Shown here: positions 11,879 to 21,069 of the stretch, piece after piece
How positions within the stretch are numbered: position 1 is the stretch's first letter
Layout of the letters: each line of letters begins with the position of its first letter
Origin: Flavobacteriaceae bacterium
Lineage (GTDB): Bacteria > Bacteroidota > Bacteroidia > Flavobacteriales > Flavobacteriaceae
DNA length: 64,000 bases
Assembly (NCBI GenBank): GCA_030835825.1
Contig: JAURRA010000022.1
Coordinates: 1 to 64,000, forward strand
Direction: 5' to 3'
Program-made: the position numbers and the translations under genes
Notes under the pieces: generated by a model
What the model was told of the DNA's origin: nothing
The model's input: the letters and a program-made list of their open reading frames with translations, nothing else
Databases searched by the model: none

Positions 11879-13237
11879 TCAATTATTTGGAGTAGGGCTA
11901 TTTAACCGCAGTCTGATTTCTCGACGCAAAAACCACGCTGTAAGAACTGTCGATAAAACATCGGAAATCGGGAAAGCCAACCAAACTCCGGTTGCTCCAA
12001 AATATAGGGGCAAAACTAATATCAAAGGAATGAAGAAAAAGCCCTGTCGAGAGAGGGTGAGTAGTAAGGCTGGCGTTGCTCTGCCAACCGCTTGAAAATA
12101 GGCCGCCCCAATCAATTGTATGGCTATTATTGGAGTTGCGGCAAAAACCCATCTCATTGCGCTTGGTGTTTGCTCCAACACGGCTTGGTTGTCCGTAAAC
12201 ATGCGTGTAATGGCCTCTGGAAAGGTCATCAGCAAGACAAAAATGATTGTAGCTAAGGCCGAGGCGTATTTCAATGCTGTATAAATGGTTTCTTTCACAC
12301 GATCGTAATGCTGAGCGCCATAATTAAATCCTGCAATAGGTAAAAAGCCTTGAGTGATGCCAAATATGGGAAATAGTGCAAACATTAACATTCTTCCTAC
12401 AATGGCATAGGCAGTCACAGAATCCTCCCCTCCCAAATCAAATAGGATGGTATTCATTAAAAGGTAGGTAATACTAACTATGGCCTGTCGCGACAGGGTT
12501 ACAAACCCTAAGGCGCTAATTTCTTTGACTATTGGTAATTTCAATTTACAATGAGACCAATTGATTTTTAAGGCCGAATGCTTCGACGTGAAAAACCAAA
12601 AAATGTAGGCAAAACAAAGAAAATAAGAGCCTGTAGTCGCTAGGGCAGCACCAAACATGCCTAAATTCAAAAATTTGATGAAAATGACATCCAAAACTAA
12701 GTTAGAAACCGATGGAATCAGCATGGCCCACATGGCAAATTTAGGCTGACCTTCGGCCCGAATAACGGTATTCCCCATCATACTAAAACCTAAAAACAAC
12801 ACGCCCCAAAGCAATACGGTATAGTAGGTCTTTGCTGGCTCGTAAATTAAACCTCGACCTCCAAATGCCGGTACAATACTTTCGGTAAAATACAAGCATA
12901 GCCCAACCAATGCCGTGATTAAAATGAATGTCAGCGTAATTTGATTACCGAAGGTTTGCAATGCTTTGGGTTTATCCTTTTGACCCAAGGCTCGTGACAA
13001 AACCGAAGATCCCCCAATACCAATAGACATCCCCAATGCGGCAACAAAAAAAGATACAGGAAGAACCACATTTATAGCCGCAATAGCGACTGAACCAATC
13101 CAATTGCCAACAAAAATAGTGTCGACCAAAATATTCAACGACATGACTAAAATCCCAATCGACGCTGGAACGGCCTGTTTGATTAACAAACTTCCAATGG
13201 GTTGCGTCCCTAGAGCAGTCGTTTTAGCCTCTGACAT
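11879..13237 (-). CDS. MATE family efflux transporter
   Basis: Twelve-helix multidrug/toxin antiporter of 452 residues. Family features include the N-terminal PIGSLLIKQAVPASIGIL helix and the repeated half containing PIFGITQGFLPIAGFNYGAQ. Its ATG overlaps the hemH stop by one base (TGATG), so it is translated from the hemH message. A role in exporting haem intermediates or toxic compounds is suggested only by this location. Substrate and coupling ion cannot be read from the sequence. Confidence 0.9.
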   Translation of the reverse strand: MSEAKTTALGTQPIGSLLIKQAVPASIGILVMSLNILVDTIFVGNWIGSVAIAAINVVLPVSFFVAALGMSIGIGGSSVLSRALGQKDKPKALQTFGNQITLTFILITALVGLCLYFTESIVPAFGGRGLIYEPAKTYYTVLLWGVLFLGFSMMGNTVIRAEGQPKFAMWAMLIPSVSNLVLDVIFIKFLNLGMFGAALATTGSYFLCFAYIFWFFTSKHSALKINWSHCKLKLPIVKEISALGFVTLSRQAIVSITYLLMNTILFDLGGEDSVTAYAIVGRMLMFALFPIFGITQGFLPIAGFNYGAQHYDRVKETIYTALKYASALATIIFVLLMTFPEAITRMFTDNQAVLEQTPSAMRWVFAATPIIAIQLIGAAYFQAVGRATPALLLTLSRQGFFFIPLILVLPLYFGATGVWLAFPISDVLSTVLTAWFLRREIRLRLNSPTPNN

Positions 13238-14271
13238 CAGACAAAAGGCGTTTCGTTACTGGCCCAGTTGTTAATCCAGTGAGCCAATAAGGCTACCCAT
13301 TTTGGGTCATCGTTTAAGCAAGAGAGGGTATTAAAATGTGTTCCACCAGCTTCGTGAAAAAGTTCTTCGCCCTCCATGGCAATTTCTTCTAATGTTTCCA
13401 GACAGTCCGAAACAAAGGCAGGAGTAGCCACGGCCATAGATCGAACACCTTCTTTTGCCAAGCGTTCAATTGTACGGTCGGTATAGGGTCTCAACCACGG
13501 GTCAAACCCTAATCGCGACTGGAAAGAAGTTGAAAAGGAGCCCTCTGTCAGCTTCATCTTTTCTGCCACCAATCGGGTTACTTCTTTACACTGATGGCGA
13601 TAGCAGAACTCATGGGCCGGAGAGGAGGTCACACAACAAGTCCCATCAATTTTACAGTGTGATTTGGTGATATCGCTTTTACGAATGTGTCTTTCTGGAA
13701 CACCGTGATACGAAAATAACAAATGCTCGGGGGTATTCGCTTTGATTTGTTCACTGAGAGAATGGGCTAGGACATCGATATATTCTGGTTGGTTATAAAA
13801 GGCGGGCAGTGACGACATTTTAAGATTAGGAAATTGATCTCGGATCAATTCTTCGGCCAAAACCAATGTAGTTTCAGTAGTAGCCATGGCATATTGGGGA
13901 TAGAGCGGGACAACAAAAACCTCATCCACACCTTGATCCGACAATTCACGCAGGCCTGTTTCCATAGAAGGCTTACCGTAGCGCATAGCCAAAGCAACAG
14001 GTAAGTCTACTTGTGGCCGCAATGCTTGAGTGAGCCTCTCGGAAAGCACTATTAACGGCGAGCCTTCATCCCACCATATTTTCTTATAAGCTTTAGCAGA
14101 GGCCTTGGGTCGTGTATTCAGGATAATTCCTTTGACCAAAATTGACCTCAACCATTTCGGAAAATCGATCACACGACCATCCATCAAAAATTCACCTAAA
14201 TAATTTTTTACATCTTTAGGTTCTGGAGAGTCAGGAGAGCCCAAATTTACCAGTAAAACACCTTTACTCAT
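13237..14271 (-). CDS. hemH: Ferrochelatase HemH
   Basis: Inserts Fe(II) into protoporphyrin IX, the last step of protohaem synthesis. The start is the ATG at 14271 (344 residues); a GTG two codons upstream is possible but less likely. Recognisable motifs are LLVNLGSPDSP at the N-terminus, LFSYHGVPERHI with the catalytic His near residue 190, and GFDPWLRPYTD, with further conserved acidic residues (CLETLEEIAMEGEE). Three Cys residues around CKIDGTCC and CYRHQC lie in the region that binds a 2Fe-2S cluster in some ferrochelatases. Encoded back-to-back with the AraC regulator on the same strand. Confidence 0.94.
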   Translation of the reverse strand: MSKGVLLVNLGSPDSPEPKDVKNYLGEFLMDGRVIDFPKWLRSILVKGIILNTRPKASAKAYKKIWWDEGSPLIVLSERLTQALRPQVDLPVALAMRYGKPSMETGLRELSDQGVDEVFVVPLYPQYAMATTETTLVLAEELIRDQFPNLKMSSLPAFYNQPEYIDVLAHSLSEQIKANTPEHLLFSYHGVPERHIRKSDITKSHCKIDGTCCVTSSPAHEFCYRHQCKEVTRLVAEKMKLTEGSFSTSFQSRLGFDPWLRPYTDRTIERLAKEGVRSMAVATPAFVSDCLETLEEIAMEGEELFHEAGGTHFNTLSCLNDDPKWVALLAHWINNWASNETPFV

Positions 14272-14286
14272 GGCCACAAAATTTGC

Positions 14287-15168
14287 TCACGAAGATACAG
14301 ACATTATATATTTTTTGGGCGTGGTTCCATATTTCTTTTTGAAGGCCGAAATAAAATGACTGGCTGTACTGTACCCTACTTTTAGGCCTACCTCATTGAC
14401 GTTAGACTCTCCGGATTCGAGTAAACGTCGGGACACTTCCATTTTGTAATCGAAAAGAAATTGATAAACGGTTGCACCATAAATTTGCTTAAACCCTTCC
14501 TTTAACTTGCGCAAACTCAAGCCTGCCATTTCTGCCAACTCCTGCAAACTAGGTGGCTCAGTCATTCTATTGATAATTATATCTTTGGCCTTTTTAATTT
14601 TTGCTACGTTGGAAGCATCAACCAAAAAAGGACATTGTTCCGCACCACCTTCAACGGTTTGATTAAAATAATGACTCAAGAGTTCGTAGACCTTACCCTT
14701 GAAATACAAAGTTTGGATAGAGGCGTTGAGGTTAAAATGCATCAATTGATTTAAAATAATGGCCATTGAGGGTGAAATTACGCCATCTTGATAATATTTT
14801 TTGTCGATATTTTCCTCACTCAAAAAACTAATCGAATCCGATTCCGAAGAGAATAGGGCATGGAATTTTTTAATTGAAATCACTACAGAAACTGTCCAGG
14901 TATTGGGATCCAATTCCATGTGGATGGGTAAATCTCGTTGTGGATTGTACAACAGTAATGACTTGTCCTCGGCATTGTTAAGACTGTAATTTCCCTCATT
15001 AAAAACCAGTTTAGACGAGCCTTTCAAAGTAAAGTGAAATTGTATTAAAGACCTGTCCAAATCATGAACAAAAACCTGTGGGCGAGCGCTGTCATTATTG
15101 GCCGTTAGTACGCAAAACCCCGTCTCTATGTCAACAATGACAAATTGTCCTTTAGCGATATTTTCCAT
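14287..15168 (-). CDS. AraC-family transcriptional regulator, probable hem regulator
   Basis: DNA-binding regulator of 293 residues. The C-terminal ~100 residues hold two helix-turn-helix motifs, LQELAEMAGLSLRKLKEGFK and VNEVGLKVGYSTASHFISAF, ending with KYGTTPKKY. The N-terminal ~180 residues are an unassigned sensor domain. It is divergent from hemA with 195 bases between, and lies 15 bases before hemH on its own strand. This arrangement, a regulator between hemH and hemACDEFB, recurs in Flavobacteriia, so control of haem synthesis is a reasonable inference; the signal is unknown. Confidence 0.85.
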   Translation of the reverse strand: MENIAKGQFVIVDIETGFCVLTANNDSARPQVFVHDLDRSLIQFHFTLKGSSKLVFNEGNYSLNNAEDKSLLLYNPQRDLPIHMELDPNTWTVSVVISIKKFHALFSSESDSISFLSEENIDKKYYQDGVISPSMAIILNQLMHFNLNASIQTLYFKGKVYELLSHYFNQTVEGGAEQCPFLVDASNVAKIKKAKDIIINRMTEPPSLQELAEMAGLSLRKLKEGFKQIYGATVYQFLFDYKMEVSRRLLESGESNVNEVGLKVGYSTASHFISAFKKKYGTTPKKYIMSVSS

Positions 15169-15195
15169 ATGTATTTTATAATTAGGATCCTAGAG

Positions 15196-15209
15196 CACAG
15201 TGCACTGTG
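15196..15209. promoter_or_regulatory. Perfect 14-bp palindrome upstream of the AraC gene
   Basis: CACAGTGCACTGTG is its own reverse complement and lies 28-41 bases upstream of the regulator's ATG. Size and position fit a dimeric repressor or autoregulatory site. No link to a named regulator is shown. Confidence 0.4.
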
Positions 15210-15262
15210 GGTAAAGTAAAAATTAGAATATGCCGTAAAAATAAGCTATTTGAGTGTTTTTT

Positions 15263-15344
15263 TAGCGTTATTTTAAATTAATCCGAGTCCGACATTTAAA
15301 GTCCTTCTAGCGTTATTTTTTAAATATCACTCGCTTTATTTTTG
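15263..15344 (+). promoter_or_regulatory. hemA promoter with paired direct repeats
   Basis: A -7 element TATTTTTG lies at 15337-15344, predicting a start near 15348. No TTG occurs at -33. Instead the sequence TAGCGTTATTTT(TT)AAAT occurs twice, at 15263-15278 and 15308-15325, 45 bases apart, with the second copy covering the -33 region; a weaker third copy (CGCTTTATTTTTGC) overlaps the -7. Direct repeats replacing a -33 box are typical of AraC-type activation, so these are candidate operators for the divergent regulator. Confidence 0.5.
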
Positions 15345-15363: not shown

Positions 15364-16617
15364 TTGTCAACACTAACCCCAGTCACTCCTTTTTCCGTTC
15401 TCGGCCTGAGTTATAAAAAGGCTGACGCCCATATCCGCGGGCTATTTAGCTTGGACCAACAGGGGAAAACGAATCTAATTAAAGATGCTCAAGCCAAAGG
15501 CTTGAAGAGCCTTTGTGTCATTTCGACATGCAACCGCACAGAAATTTATGCTGGAACTTCCGACTACGATTTGTTGATGGATTTGATGTGCGCCCATACT
15601 TTAGGTGATAAAGAAACACTTCAAAAAGTAGCCTATTTCTATGCCGATGATTTGGCTATTGATCATCTTTTTAATGTAGGCTCAGGCTTAGATAGTCAAA
15701 TTTTAGGTGATTTCGAAATCATAGGACAACTCAAAAATAGTGCCCGATTGTCAAAAGAACTTGGCCTTATGGACGCTCATTTGGAGCGACTTATTAATTC
15801 TGTTCTACAGGCCAGTAAGGGAATCAAGCATTTTACACAATTGTCATCGGGGGCCACATCGGTTTCCTTTGCCGCTGTGCAGTACATTCTTTCCCATGTC
15901 CAAGAGACTTCCGACAAAAATATCCTTCTTTTTGGAACAGGTAAAATTGGTCGAAATACCTGTGAGAATTTGGTGAAGCATACCCAAAACAGACATATTA
16001 CACTAATCAATAGAACCAAGTCCCTAGCTGAAAAAGTAGCTGGAAAATTTAATTTGATGGTAAAAGAATACGGGCAACTTCAGGAAGTTATTCGCAAGAC
16101 AGATATCATGATTGTCGCCACAGGAGCACAACAGCCGACGGTCAATAAAAATATCGTCCGAACGGAAAAACATCTATTAATCCTTGACTTGTCCATTCCA
16201 AGAAACGTCGACCCTAATGTGGAAGACTTGAGTAATGTCACACTGGTACATTTAGACAATCTGACCCAAATCACAGACGAGGCCTTGGAAAACAGACAGC
16301 AAGAGGTCCCCAAAGCACAAAGTATAATTAGTCAAATCAAAGCAGAATTTTATGAGTGGTGTCATTCAAGAAAATATGTCCCCACTCTGCGAGCCTTACA
16401 AGATAAATTACACCAAATCAAAGCCGATGAACTGACCTCATTGTCTAAAAAAGGTGAGGTCGTAGATGCTGTAAGTGTCGAACTCGTAACTGATCATTTG
16501 ATTCAAAAAATTACAAATCAACTCGCGCATCATTTGCGTCATTCTCAAATTGAGAGTGATGAAAAATTGCAACTGATACAGTCGGTTTTTCAACTCAACA
16601 TCCAAGGCAATGACTAG
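15364..16617 (+). CDS. hemA: Glutamyl-tRNA reductase HemA
   Basis: Catalyses the first committed step of C5-pathway tetrapyrrole synthesis, reducing glutamyl-tRNA to glutamate-1-semialdehyde. The 417-residue protein has the N-terminal VLGLSYKKADA, the catalytic Cys in CVISTCNRTEIYAG, the NADPH-binding segment LLFGTGKIGRNTCENL and a C-terminal helical dimerisation domain. The start must be the TTG at 15364: the frame upstream offers no ATG, and the next in-frame ATG lies far inside the catalytic domain. A weak start may limit entry into the pathway. First gene of hemA-C-D-E-F-B; the end overlaps hemC by 8 bases. Confidence 0.94.
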   Translation: MSTLTPVTPFSVLGLSYKKADAHIRGLFSLDQQGKTNLIKDAQAKGLKSLCVISTCNRTEIYAGTSDYDLLMDLMCAHTLGDKETLQKVAYFYADDLAIDHLFNVGSGLDSQILGDFEIIGQLKNSARLSKELGLMDAHLERLINSVLQASKGIKHFTQLSSGATSVSFAAVQYILSHVQETSDKNILLFGTGKIGRNTCENLVKHTQNRHITLINRTKSLAEKVAGKFNLMVKEYGQLQEVIRKTDIMIVATGAQQPTVNKNIVRTEKHLLILDLSIPRNVDPNVEDLSNVTLVHLDNLTQITDEALENRQQEVPKAQSIISQIKAEFYEWCHSRKYVPTLRALQDKLHQIKADELTSLSKKGEVVDAVSVELVTDHLIQKITNQLAHHLRHSQIESDEKLQLIQSVFQLNIQGND

Positions 16618-17521
16618 CCCAATTCGCATAGGGACCAGAAAAAGTCCTTTAGCCCTATGGCAGGCGCAACAAGTGCAAGACCACTTTTCGGCGCTTGGTA
16701 TTACTAGCGTTCTCGTGACAATAACATCGGAGGGTGATGCCAACCAAACAACGCCCCTCTATGCTATGGGCATTACCGGGGTATTTACAAAAAATTTGGA
16801 CTTGGCGCTTCTTGAAAATAGAATTGACATTGCCGTGCACAGTATGAAAGATGTTCCTACCACTTTAGGGGAAGGACTCGTTCAAGCTGCCGTTTTAGAA
16901 CGAGGATCTGTCCACGACCTGTTCATCAGTGCCTCAAATTCTCCCATCGGTGACAATAGCACCATTGCAACAGGGAGTATGCGTCGCGCAGCGCAATGGA
17001 AAAGCCGATTCCCCAATCATCATATGGTCGACTTACGGGGCAACATACAAACAAGATTAGATCGATTAAACTCATTTGGAATAGATGGTATCATTATGGC
17101 CGCTGCAGGTATAGAACGCCTGGGTATCAACCCTTCTTACAGCGAAACTTTGGACTGGATGGTTCCCGCTCCAGCTCAAGGTGCAGTTATGGTGGTATGT
17201 CGGGAAAAATCCCAACATATCATTGAACTGTGTCAATCGTTTAATCATATACCGACCGCCATTTGTACCGCTATCGAAAGGAGCTTTTTAAAAACGCTTG
17301 AAGGCGGATGTACAGCTCCGATTGGCGCTCTGGCGACCATTGAGAATACCAAAATAAATTTTCAAGGGGTTTTATCGTCTGTTGATGGTAAACACAAGAT
17401 TACTGTTGATGAAAGTTGTAACGGTGACCGTACAGACAACTTTGGAGAACGGTGTGCTGCATCTGTCCTCAAAAAAGGGGGCAAAGAACTGATGGCGGCT
17501 ATTAAAGCCCAGATGTCATGA
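16610..17521 (+). CDS. hemC: Hydroxymethylbilane synthase (porphobilinogen deaminase) HemC
   Basis: Polymerises four porphobilinogens into hydroxymethylbilane. The 303 residues start with IRIGTRKSPLALWQAQQV. They contain HSMKDVPT, GSMRRAAQ and RGNIQTRLDRL for substrate binding, and LEGGCTAPIGA with the Cys that carries the dipyrromethane cofactor near residue 238. Start ATG at 16610 overlaps hemA; the stop overlaps hemD as ATGA. Confidence 0.95.
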   Translation: MTSPIRIGTRKSPLALWQAQQVQDHFSALGITSVLVTITSEGDANQTTPLYAMGITGVFTKNLDLALLENRIDIAVHSMKDVPTTLGEGLVQAAVLERGSVHDLFISASNSPIGDNSTIATGSMRRAAQWKSRFPNHHMVDLRGNIQTRLDRLNSFGIDGIIMAAAGIERLGINPSYSETLDWMVPAPAQGAVMVVCREKSQHIIELCQSFNHIPTAICTAIERSFLKTLEGGCTAPIGALATIENTKINFQGVLSSVDGKHKITVDESCNGDRTDNFGERCAASVLKKGGKELMAAIKAQMS

Positions 17522-18165
17522 AAGTATTATCGACCAAAATATTATCCCCGGCACAACAGTCCCACCTCATGTTAGCGGATATCGCATTGGTGCAATTTGA
17601 CGCTATACAAGTCGTTCCAACTGACTTCAAGGCACCAAAAAATATTTCCAGTGCCATTGTAAGTAGTCACAATGCTGTCAAGCAATTAATGTCCGAAAAA
17701 ATCACTGCACAAAATTGGTATTGTGTCGGTGAAAAGTCGAAAAATCATTTAATTCAAAATGGTCAAAATGTGGCTAAAACAGCTCAAAATGCCTCAGAAT
17801 TAGCCGATTTTATAACAAAATACGCCAATAATGACGAATTTCTGTTTTTCTGTGGTGATAGAAAAAGAGATGAATTACCCGATATTTTACGGCAAAATGA
17901 TGTCCGATTGAAACTTTTGGAGATCTATCGGACCGAGCTCAATCCCCAGCGCATTTCGGGTGATTTTGATGCCATCTTATTTTTTAGTCCGTCTGCAGTT
18001 CAAAGTTTTGTATCCCTCAATACCATGAATAACTGCATGGCATTTTGTATTGGACATACTACGGCGAATGAAGCTTTGAAACACACCTCAAACATTGTGG
18101 TGGCCAAAAAGGCAACCATTGACAACGTATTAATTCAACTGATAAAATATAAACAACATGCCTAA
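17518..18165 (+). CDS. hemD: Uroporphyrinogen-III synthase HemD
   Basis: Cyclises and inverts ring D of hydroxymethylbilane. The family is poorly conserved. The 215-residue length, [12 protein letters not shown] and [10 protein letters not shown] motifs, plus position between hemC and hemE, support the assignment. Overlaps hemC by 4 and hemE by 8 bases. Confidence 0.85.
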
Positions 18166-19189
18166 AAACGATTTGTTTTTAAAAGCTTTAAATGGCGCAA
18201 CTGTGGAGCGACCTCCTGTGTGGATGATGCGTCAGGCTGGTCGTTATCTGCCTGAATTCATTGCTATTCGTGAAAAATACGACTTCTTTACCCGCTGCCG
18301 TACCCCGGAGCTAGCCAGCGAAATCACCATGCAGCCCATACGTCGGTATGGCATGGATGCCGCAATTCTATTCAGCGATATTTTGGTTGTTCCTCAAGCG
18401 ATGAATATAGAGGTTGAAATGAAACCCAATTTTGGACCCTACCTTTCCAACCCTGTGAGAGACCAAAAAGGGGTCGATCGTGTTGTAGTCCCTGATGTTG
18501 CCGTTGAATTGGACTATGTTATGAAGGCCATAGAAGCGACAAAAGTGCTTTTGAATGACGACATTCCTCTGATCGGATTCGCTGGTTCGCCATGGACCAT
18601 ATTGTGTTATGTGGTTCAAGGACAAGGCAGCAAGACCTTTGATCAAGCGAAAGGGTTTTGCTTTTCTAACCCGTCCGCTGCGCATGAATTATTGCAAAAA
18701 ATAACCGACACTACCATTGCCTATTTGAAGGCGAAAGTAGCTCATGGTGTCGATGTTGTGCAAATTTTTGATTCTTGGGGCGGCTTACTTGGCCCTGAAG
18801 ATTATAAAGAATTTTCCATGAATTATACCCAACAAATCGTCAGCGCTTTGAAGGATTCTGCCCATGTGATTCTTTTTGGGAAAGGTTGTTGGTTTGCGCT
18901 CAGCGATATGGCAAAAAGTGGCGCCAGTGCCTTAGGTGTGGACTGGACCTGTTCTGCTCGTAACGCACGCTATCTCAGCGGAGGTCAAATAACCCTTCAA
19001 GGGAATTTCGATCCCGCACGTTTGTTGTCGCCACCCAAACTCATCAAAAAAATGGTACACAACATGATTGACGACTTTGGTAAAGATCGGTATATCGTAA
19101 ATCTCGGTCATGGGATTTTGCCAAACATTCCTTTGGATCATGCTCAAGCCTTCGTAGATGCGGTTAAGAATTATCCCCATGAAAGATAA
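18158..19189 (+). CDS. hemE: Uroporphyrinogen decarboxylase HemE
   Basis: Converts uroporphyrinogen III to coproporphyrinogen III in the cytosol. The 343-residue protein shows the N-terminal signature [15 protein letters not shown] with the two essential arginines, the aspartate in LFSDILVVP, the [12 protein letters not shown] segment and [13 protein letters not shown]. Start ATG at 18158 lies within the end of hemD. The 3' end overlaps hemF by 11 bases. Confidence 0.96.
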
Positions 19190-20093
19190 ATTCTACAACT
19201 ACATCTGCCAGCTTCAAGATGAAATTTGCGAATCATTCACATCTATTGATGGGAAGGCCTGTTTTCAAGAAGACTTATGGTCCCGTGCGGAGGGTGGCGG
19301 TGGACGAACTAGGATTATTGAGAACGGTGCTGTTTTTGAAAAAGGTGGCGTTAATATTTCGGCGGTTCACGGGCCTTTGGCACCAGCAATGCAGGCCTAT
19401 TTCAAAATAGGTGAGGTAGATTTCTTTGCTTGTGGCCTAAGTTTGGTAATGCATCCCAAGAATCCCATGGCACCTACTGTCCATGCCAATTGGCGCTATT
19501 TTGAAATGTACGACAAATCGGGAGCTCCCATAGATGCCTGGTTTGGGGGAGGCTTGGATTTAACGCCTTACTATTTGTTTGAAGAAGATGCCGAGCATTT
19601 CCATCGGATATGCAAAGCCTCTTGTGACCAACATGACCCTTCCTTTTACCCAAAATACAAAGTACAATGCGATGCGTATTTTTACAATCAGCATCGCCAA
19701 GAAGCGCGCGGCATTGGAGGATTATTTTTCGATTATCTCAAAGCCGATCAGGAAAGAAATTTAGAGCAGTGGTATGATTTCGTAACTGACAACGCAAACC
19801 ATTTTTTGGAGGCATATGTCCCAATAGTGACTCGTCGTAAAGACATGACTTACACTGACAAGGAACGAGAATGGCAAGAAATTAGACGTGGCCGTTATGT
19901 GGAATTCAATTTGGTACACGACAAAGGCACCCTTTTCGGCCTCAAAACCAACGGCCGTATTGAAAGTATTTTGATGAGTTTACCTCCAAAAGTTCAATGG
20001 CAATATGACCATCAGCCAGAAGAGAATTCGGCCGAAGCAGCATTAATAGAAGTTCTTACCTCACCGAGAGATTGGTGCAAAACAAATAGTTAA
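19179..20093 (+). CDS. hemF: Oxygen-dependent coproporphyrinogen III oxidase HemF
   Basis: Aerobic oxidative decarboxylase producing protoporphyrinogen IX. The 304 residues from the ATG at 19179 carry [18 protein letters not shown] and [18 protein letters not shown], both family signatures, and [16 protein letters not shown] near the C-terminus. An in-frame ATG at 19158 would only extend into hemE. Use of HemF indicates that haem is made aerobically; an oxygen-independent HemN could lie elsewhere. Confidence 0.95.
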
Positions 20094-20094
20094 T

Positions 20095-21069
20095 ATGTAT
20101 CCATTCAACAGAAACCGCAGACTACGTCAAAGCGAAGCCATCAGGTCATTAGTGCGGGAGCATTCTCTCAGCCCACAAGATTTTTTGGTACCCCTATTTG
20201 TAGTAGAAGGTAAAGCGGTGAAAGAGACTATTCCTTCAATGCCCAACTACTATCGGTATAGTCTGGATAAATTGGAGGAAGAAATCAAAACACTTTGGTC
20301 CCTAGGATTGAGAGCTGTTTTGTTATTTGTCAAAGTCGATGATACTCTCAAAGATAATGAAGGAACTGAAGCTATCAATCCGAAGGGTTTGATGCAACGA
20401 GCGATTCAGAGGGTAAAGGAAGTCTGTCCCGACATGTTGGTTATGACTGACGTTGCTCTTGATCCTTACTCGTCCTTTGGCCACGATGGTGTCGTTCAAA
20501 ACGGTAAAATTGTCAACGATCCCACTACTGTTATTTTAGCGGAAATGAGCGTCTCTCATGCCAGGGCAGGAGCAGATTTTGTAGCCCCTAGTGATATGAT
20601 GGACGGTCGGGTTTTTGCCATCAGACAAGCGCTAGAAGAGGCTTCCTTTATCGATACTGGCATCATGAGTTATAGCGCCAAATACGCCTCTGGATTCTAT
20701 GGCCCCTTCCGAGATGCCTTGGACTCGGCTCCTGGCTTTGGCGACAAAAAAACCTATCAAATGGATTTTGGCAACAGTCAAGAAGCCTTAAGAGAGGTGG
20801 CAGCGGACATTGATGAAGGCGCAGACATTGTTATGGTCAAACCCGGGATGGCCTGCCTTGATATCGTAAGTCAGGTGGCTCAAAATTTTCACGTTCCTGT
20901 GGCTGCCTACCAAGTCAGTGGGGAATACGCCATGATTAAGGCGGCGGCTGAAAAAGGCTGGTTGGATCACGATCAAATTATGATTGAGAGCCTGACAGCC
21001 TTCAAACGTGCAGGTGCCAGAATCATTGCATCCTATTTCGCTAAAGATGTCGTCAAACTACTCGGATAG
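20095..21069 (+). CDS. hemB: Porphobilinogen synthase (ALA dehydratase) HemB
   Basis: Condenses two 5-aminolevulinate molecules. The 324-residue protein has both Schiff-base lysines, in MSYSAKYASGFYGPFRDA and in MVKPGMACLDI. The metal-site segment reads DVALDPYSSFGHDG, with Ala/Asp in place of the Cys residues of zinc enzymes, so it should be a magnesium-type, zinc-independent enzyme. Last gene of the hem operon, one base after the hemF stop region. Its stop lies one base from the end of the convergent nuclease gene. Confidence 0.95.
   Translation: MYPFNRNRRLRQSEAIRSLVREHSLSPQDFLVPLFVVEGKAVKETIPSMPNYYRYSLDKLEEEIKTLWSLGLRAVLLFVKVDDTLKDNEGTEAINPKGLMQRAIQRVKEVCPDMLVMTDVALDPYSSFGHDGVVQNGKIVNDPTTVILAEMSVSHARAGADFVAPSDMMDGRVFAIRQALEEASFIDTGIMSYSAKYASGFYGPFRDALDSAPGFGDKKTYQMDFGNSQEALREVAADIDEGADIVMVKPGMACLDIVSQVAQNFHVPVAAYQVSGEYAMIKAAAEKGWLDHDQIMIESLTAFKRAGARIIASYFAKDVVKLLG

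Follow-up and report, generated by a model that had tools for sequence, protein, structure and literature searches.

In the ara control region of E. coli, the half-sites of the regulator AraC are spaced 21 bp apart. Two of its sites, araI1 and araO2, lie about 200 bp apart and are described as being held in a DNA loop, from which binding shifts to araI1-araI2 (PMC6018408). For the hfp operon of F. psychrophilum, a response to iron and haem is described; the authors discuss Fur in this connection, and AraC is not named in the main text of their report (PMC9331221). Within the open-licence PMC literature, subscription papers lying outside the scope of the search, we found no description of a hem-linked AraC regulator or of its site in these bacteria.

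The locus analyzed here lies in a window of 64,000 nucleotides (contig JAURRA010000022.1, positions 1 to 64,000) from a Flavobacteriaceae genome of 1,624,941 bases that is 95% complete. Like E. coli araC-araBAD, the locus combines a divergent AraC-family gene, promoter-adjacent tandem half-sites and a distant half-site on the araC side; unlike E. coli ara, the module stands at haem genes in Bacteroidota and has a TAnnTTTG promoter (Table 1). The features of an ara-type control region that it displays are a tandem of about 21 bp over -35/-33 and a distant half-site at a near-fixed distance. We consider it likely that the region is a haem-dedicated AraC-family regulatory module laid out like its E. 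coli counterpart, including the loop and the ligand switch. At the level of sequence comparison, the anatomy, the spacing, the selection on the DNA and the co-occurrence with araC are established.

The hemA, hemC, hemD, hemE, hemF and hemB genes follow one another on the plus strand, with neighbors that overlap, abut or are separated by small gaps, and hemC to hemB probably share one transcription unit with hemA. On the other strand, hemH and araC probably form one transcription unit as well. In most relatives' loci araC is flanked by hemH and hemA, and elsewhere one of the flanking genes was not found within 1.5 kb. A second hemA-like gene, 27-28% identical, occurs in G310 and G115 (L113, L114).

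Table 1. Features of the araC-hemA region, in coordinates of the window.
Feature	Position	Strand	Basis or remark
hemH (ferrochelatase)	13237..14277	-	Pfam Ferrochelatase; 9 bases behind araC
araC (AraC-family regulator)	14287..15168	-	Pfam HTH_18, predicted model, fold matches, alignment A1
O2 AGCGATATTTTC	15154..15165	+	over araC codons 2-5 (araC on opposite strand); 155 bp from O1 half-site 2
Putative araC -7 box TATTTTTA (TAATTTTG in L011)	15236..15243	-	CAAAnnTA in relatives
Distal repeat AGCGTTATTTTA	15264..15275	+	starts 20 nt from putative araC -7 box; weak R1 match, E 0.46
O1 half-site 1 TCCGACATTTAA	15288..15299	+	21 bp ahead of half-site 2; in alignment A2, CGA hardly varies
O1 half-site 2 AGCGTTATTTTT (proximal repeat)	15309..15320	+	28 nt before TAnnTTTG in relatives; best R1 site
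hemA -7 box TATTTTTG	15337..15344	+	TAnnTTTG at same place in relatives
hemA (glutamyl-tRNA reductase), first gene of operon	15364..16617	+	Pfam GlutR_N; true start codon uncertain
hemC, hemD, hemE, hemF, hemB	16610..21069	+	ORF list; hemD by Pfam, others named from sequence

The araC product carries a double helix-turn-helix C domain, recognized by PF12833 (HTH_18) at 70.4 bits against a cut-off of 33.6. In a predicted model (pLDDT 86.3, pTM 0.57, with the linker at residues 171-183 poorly predicted), the DNA-binding domain matches 3oio with a Z score of 15.2 and the AraC domain 2k9s with a Z score of 13.9, and the predicted cupin-like N domain aligns with the AraC dimerisation domain 2ara over 134 residues at 3.6 A (Z 10.4). 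As modeled, the protein shares the domain plan and both folds of AraC, ToxT and Rns, members of the AraC/XylS family with a cupin-type ligand domain, and differs from them in an invariant linker Cys-Pro and in its linkage to hem or haem-uptake-type genes. Unlike the regulator of E. coli ara, it falls far below the NCBIfam cut-off for the AraC equivalog (PRK10572, 45.1 bits against 208), and is therefore not E. coli AraC. Because a protein search of the window genome at E<=0.001 returned a single match for this product, it may be the sole AraC-type regulator encoded there.

The linker pair Cys179-Pro180, together with His103, is invariant in all 39 proteins of alignment A1. Cys-Pro recurs in 7/7 further orthologs, and CPF or CPY is present in 18 of 20 class-level matches outside the family, the exceptions (L181 and L182) being the weakest. 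Cys-Pro is absent from all 27 AraC paralog proteins, which come from 26 loci. Because Cys-Pro is a known haem-regulatory motif, we propose the araC product as a candidate haem sensor acting through this pair.

The first-pass annotation of this DNA had described paired direct repeats upstream of hemA, and two copies of TAGCGTTATTTT do occur on the same (+) strand at 15263-15274 and 15308-15319, 45 bp apart. No further exact copy occurs in the genome, for which a composition estimate expects 0.46. The annotation's reading of the hemA promoter as a good -7 box without a -33 box stands, the -33 place being taken by the proximal repeat, and it is the proposal of the pair as a single operator that we reject, because outside the genus only the proximal copy (15308) is kept. 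The proximal repeat is found in most of the family and the distal repeat in the window's genus only, where it is clear in L009, L011 and L012. A weaker third copy reported over the -7 box (15331, two mismatches) was likewise discarded as a site, since the match is at chance level and the 16-nt spacer in which it lies varies among relatives; within the window, 18 matches to the repeat with two or fewer mismatches were found and 9.6 were expected. Overlooked at that stage were a one-mismatch copy, TAGCGATATTTT, at 15153-15164 inside araC codons 2-6, and, 21 bp upstream of the proximal repeat, a weaker half-site that contains CCGACA.

TAnnTTTG is the sigma-A -7 consensus of F. psychrophilum, where it is placed at -12 to -5 (PMC9723704). 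If the hemA -7 box takes these positions, half-site 2 runs from -40 to -29 and half-site 1 from -61 to -50, giving an O1 tandem of half-sites 21 bp apart at about -57 and -35; on this numbering, half-site 2 covers the -33 position and the operator replaces the -33 box. Relatives have the same layout, in which AGCGTTnnTTTT is followed by 16 nt and then by TAnnTTTG (anchored on the best core match), and a frequent form of the tandem in genus g54, presumably Flavobacterium, is AGCGATAC / AGCGTTAC. A combined sigma-70 and terminator scan found promoter-like sites no more often than in shuffled sequence.

Conservation of the site in relatives with the same gene order, on which the annotation's reading depended, is borne out. 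In a named set of the 80 closest of 562 relatives, 11 of which overlap earlier loci and 69 of which are new, the core AGCGTTnnTTTT lies 28 nt before the hemA -7 box in 79 of the 80 loci and in every one of the 69 new ones. The O1 score is at least 15 of 17 in the same proportions (79/80 and 69/69), always at 28 nt, a value reached by 1 of 1600 shuffles. A first scan of this set permitted spacings of 28 or 29 nt only; a second left the spacing free between 13 and 49 nt and gave a perfect TAnnTTTG at 28 nt in 79 loci, at 47 nt in one and nowhere in one. Half-site 1 is also kept, with CG at the 21-bp position in 69/69 new loci and CGAYA in 65/69, and in the window itself it shares little beyond CG with half-site 2, which counts against our preferred explanation. 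The exception in the named set is L268, a member of the window's own genus; L268 and L269 are the same contigs as G002 and G001, both of that genus. On its short contig, L010/L268 has the proximal repeat with no -7 box at 28 nt and no hemA found, possibly through an assembly break or a rearrangement; this locus is a further point against the preferred explanation.

Could AGCGTTnnTTTT be merely an unusual, strong -33 promoter element and no operator at all? Its fixed distance to the -7 box is what such an element would show, and we nevertheless regard this as scarcely credible. The exact 36-nt pattern is rare, occurring in 45 of 296 genomes of the order (41/50 in the family and 4/246 elsewhere) and mostly once in each, against 2 of 296 for the reversed pattern; the upstream half-site and O2 would, moreover, be left unexplained. 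In each of the nine family genomes with no exact match, hemA is present and a variant of the site lies at 28 or 29 nt. Thirty loci were fetched from the 36-nt pattern, 28 of them at hemA; L053 is not at hemA, and in L039 (G273) the regulator is present and the downstream gene is other than hemA. Additional matches occur in G066, where the site is far from hemA, in G164 and G216, and as second matches in G300 and G100. An alignment of 28 loci gave the 28-nt spacing in 24 rows; for L017, L022 and L032 the spacing was read to a chance match lying before the box, and the anchor of L038 was its araC-side copy.

A sequence-only model, R1, was built from 38 sites with the window's genus left out. Alignment A2 and R1 drew on 45 non-redundant O1 sequences, from which seven (L029, L035, L036 and L115-L118) were omitted. 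The best R1 site of the window genome is 15290-15344 (E 2.1e-11), and the next has an E value of 0.0025. At E<=0.05, R1 matches 117 of 120 family genomes, some of these matches lying away from hemA (at a PD40 gene in G011 and at a TonB receptor in G636) and two, in G621 and G679 (E 0.036 and 0.0053), probably being due to chance, as neither an araC ortholog nor hemA was found there. The three genomes missed are G026 and G615, which have no araC ortholog, and G028, in which araC is unlinked from hemA.

The distant half-site differs from its E. coli counterpart in lying over the first araC codons, and its spacing from O1 is also different, at 165-168 bp in 76 of the 78 named loci with both sites (152 and 154 bp in the remaining two). 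The distance is 155 bp in the window and 130-177 or 244-260 bp in a number of other lineages. Relatives keep O2 as a AAAAATATCGCTAAA-like sequence on the araC strand, reaching 9 of 11 in 68 of 69 new named loci (23 of 1600 shuffles); in genus g54 it abuts the start codon chosen by the script, while the other genera begin farther upstream in that frame. In some loci that bear O1, such as those of G230, G038 and G273, O2 is absent or unrecognisable, which weighs against our preferred explanation. Within O2, the codon in alignment column 4 has C as its third base in all 32 orthologs, though it encodes I, V, N or T, while the next best of 230 columns reaches 54% and the median is 20.5%. This test was run on protein columns with the DNA match ignored; an earlier version had picked sites by score and was hence biased. 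Judged from these columns, O2 is selected as DNA and not merely as coding sequence.

A natural rearrangement bears on what O2 serves. In four genomes of genus g54 (G265, G060, G163 and G061), inserted genes part araC from hemA, and O2 is still found 166-167 bp upstream of O1, now in non-coding DNA; no O2 was found in the araC genes of these four. Between L063 and the other three, the region is 59-60% identical, and O2 itself is identical at 12/12 positions, with flanks identical at 11/40 and 16/40 columns. Because O2 stayed with the hemA promoter after araC moved away, the comparison ties O2 to hemA, with the reservation that the four may share one insertion event and are not four independent cases. 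The third-base test and the moved-araC genomes together led us to reject O2 as plain conserved coding sequence, and the latter also speak against a mere translation-start signal. A second hemA promoter was rejected too, there being no TAnnTTTG 28 nt downstream of O2 in the window. The inserted genes in L129 (2041-3079), L130, L131 and L132 include proteins of 144 to 154 and of 194 to 198 aa, the latter, tested from L129, having no Pfam match.

These genomes also weigh on a simpler scheme without a loop, in which the same regulator and operator would activate hemA from the -35/-57 tandem and O2 would separately block araC transcription or translation. In most loci O2 overlaps the araC start or lies directly against it, autorepression is common among AraC-family regulators, and helical phasing of the O2-O1 spacings is unsupported (V-test p 0.19 at 10.5 bp for 18 off-mode lineages; a scan of periods from 6 to 16 bp peaks at 14.6, and we claim no periodicity), all of which suit this scheme. 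We nonetheless think it unlikely, since O2 has kept its distance to O1 where araC has moved and no longer shows a -7 box beside it (absent in 4/4 such genomes, present in 55/65 loci elsewhere), and the departed araC copies show no O2. Because phasing is unsupported, looping in the preferred reading rests on the analogy and on the near-fixed spacing, and unlike in E. coli ara it is here an analogy-based proposal.

Activation from O1 and a looped O2 state are, by that analogy, the natural reading because the anatomy matches araBAD; we infer binding, activation, looping and the ligand on this footing. The araC product would bind DNA as a dimer, which at hemA would occupy the tandem half-sites 15288 and 15309, and protein bound at half-site 2 would bring RNA polymerase to a promoter whose only other element is a -7 box. 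O2 (15154) would pair with O1 by a DNA loop or other long-range contact, placing the promoter in a different, presumably repressed, state. The signal would most likely be haem or one of its precursors; sensed via the Cys-Pro linker motif and/or the cupin domain, it would move the dimer between two binding modes, O2-O1 and tandem O1. In the window's genus, the third copy at 15264 near the araC -33 position may add self-regulation.

The first-pass annotation had noted the divergent AraC-family gene beside the promoter, and the comparisons point to its product as the likely binder of the repeats, as operator presence tracks the araC ortholog. None of the five hemA genes examined in genomes with no araC ortholog (G026, G040, G053, G048 and G615) has a recognisable O1. 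G028, whose ortholog lies elsewhere, gave no operator match and counts against our preferred explanation. G636 and G670 have no hemA match, and in both an araC ortholog accompanies an O1 placed 28 nt before the -7 box of a TonB-receptor-like gene. In G670 this box is imperfect (TATTTTTA) and the gene was named from its sequence; the G636 receptor was confirmed by Pfam, and receptors for colicin I, B12 and haem are among the solved structures closest to it. The same change appears in O1 and O2 of G628 and G670 (ATCG) and of G463/L167 (AGAGGTATT), as expected if one protein reads both sites. The first bases of O1 and O2 differ in G036, G005, G006, G019 and G364/L170, and those of G626 agree only with the second-ranked O2 candidate; these mismatches weigh against the preferred reading.

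This pattern makes it very improbable that the repeats serve a different DNA-binding protein, such as a repressor of the iron or haem type, with araC a bystander. The 15264 copy without a counterpart outside the genus, and a different palindromic box carried in the same region by relatives (48 of 65 loci outside the genus), would fit such a protein. Against it stand the tracking of the araC ortholog, at non-hem genes too, the joint change of O1 and O2 in some lineages and not in others, and half-sites in a 21-bp tandem, which is an AraC-like arrangement.

In G589, outside the order, AGCGATATTTTT and GGCGATACTTAT stand 21 bp apart, 28 nt before the -7 box TAGTTTTG of an HmuY-family gene, and in G273, from another family of the order, one half-site stands 28 nt before the -7 box of a gene with no Pfam match. 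As in HmuY/HfpY-type haem acquisition loci, some orthologs outside the family have as their divergent neighbors HmuY-family secreted proteins (scoring above the Pfam cut-off in L165, L175 and L180 and below it in L171) or TonB receptors (L168 and L169). We tentatively speculate that this is an ancient haem-sensing AraC regulator of Bacteroidota, with a Cys-Pro linker and an ara-like loop switch, whose promoter geometry is kept while its target switches between haem synthesis, at the hemA operon, and haem uptake through HmuY or TonB receptors.

The analysis names a regulator and a residue that is a candidate sensor, places the operator half-sites to the base, yields a spacing rule and points to natural experiments in which araC has moved or hemA is missing, and so offers a precise target for studying haem control in these bacteria. 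It also presents a distant AraC-family relative in another phylum whose control region is arranged like the textbook ara system.

A wider regulon, sought near hemN, cytochrome or haem uptake genes in the first-pass proposal, took a narrower form: the genome search gave one additional clear site, before a PD40-repeat lipoprotein gene. This second site (G000:C29:75949-76005) has the 21-bp tandem and the 28-nt spacing. Among 22 family orthologs of the lipoprotein, six have a full site, with scores of 19-20 (2200 shuffles reach at most 17), and a seventh (L237) scores 16; the PD40 site also occurs in G003 and G671. With a full site in only 6/22 orthologs, this promoter was rejected as a universal second target. 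In L219 (G000:C29:73900-76500), the predicted PD40-lipoprotein operator is divergent from a peptidase-like gene.

On the araC side, CAAAnnTA lies mostly at one position between O2 and O1 in those 55 of 65 loci outside the genus that have it (13% of shuffles), and within the genus one of three loci, L011, has an exact match. The distal repeat has same-place counterparts in L011 and L012, is degenerate in L010 and is missing from that position in the rest of the 28-locus alignment. Since it starts 20 nt away from the putative araC -7 box, it may be a third site on the araC -33 position, serving a self-regulation particular to the genus.

Several palindromes share the region. A perfect 14-bp palindrome, CACAGTGCACTGTG, at 15196-15209 between araC and the repeats is absent from the loci of the genus's three other genomes. 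A perfect 10-bp palindrome, TAGGATCCTA, at 15183-15192 near the araC start, is absent from the loci of other genus members and lies about where other genera carry TTTAGA-N-TCTAAA. The box of those genera, TTTAGA-N3-7-TCTAWA (for example in L013), occurs in 0/3 loci within the genus and in 48/65 outside it, mostly 32-36 nt from O2; our guess is that it resembles an iron-type repressor site. It is kept at hemA in one of the four moved-araC genomes (L063).
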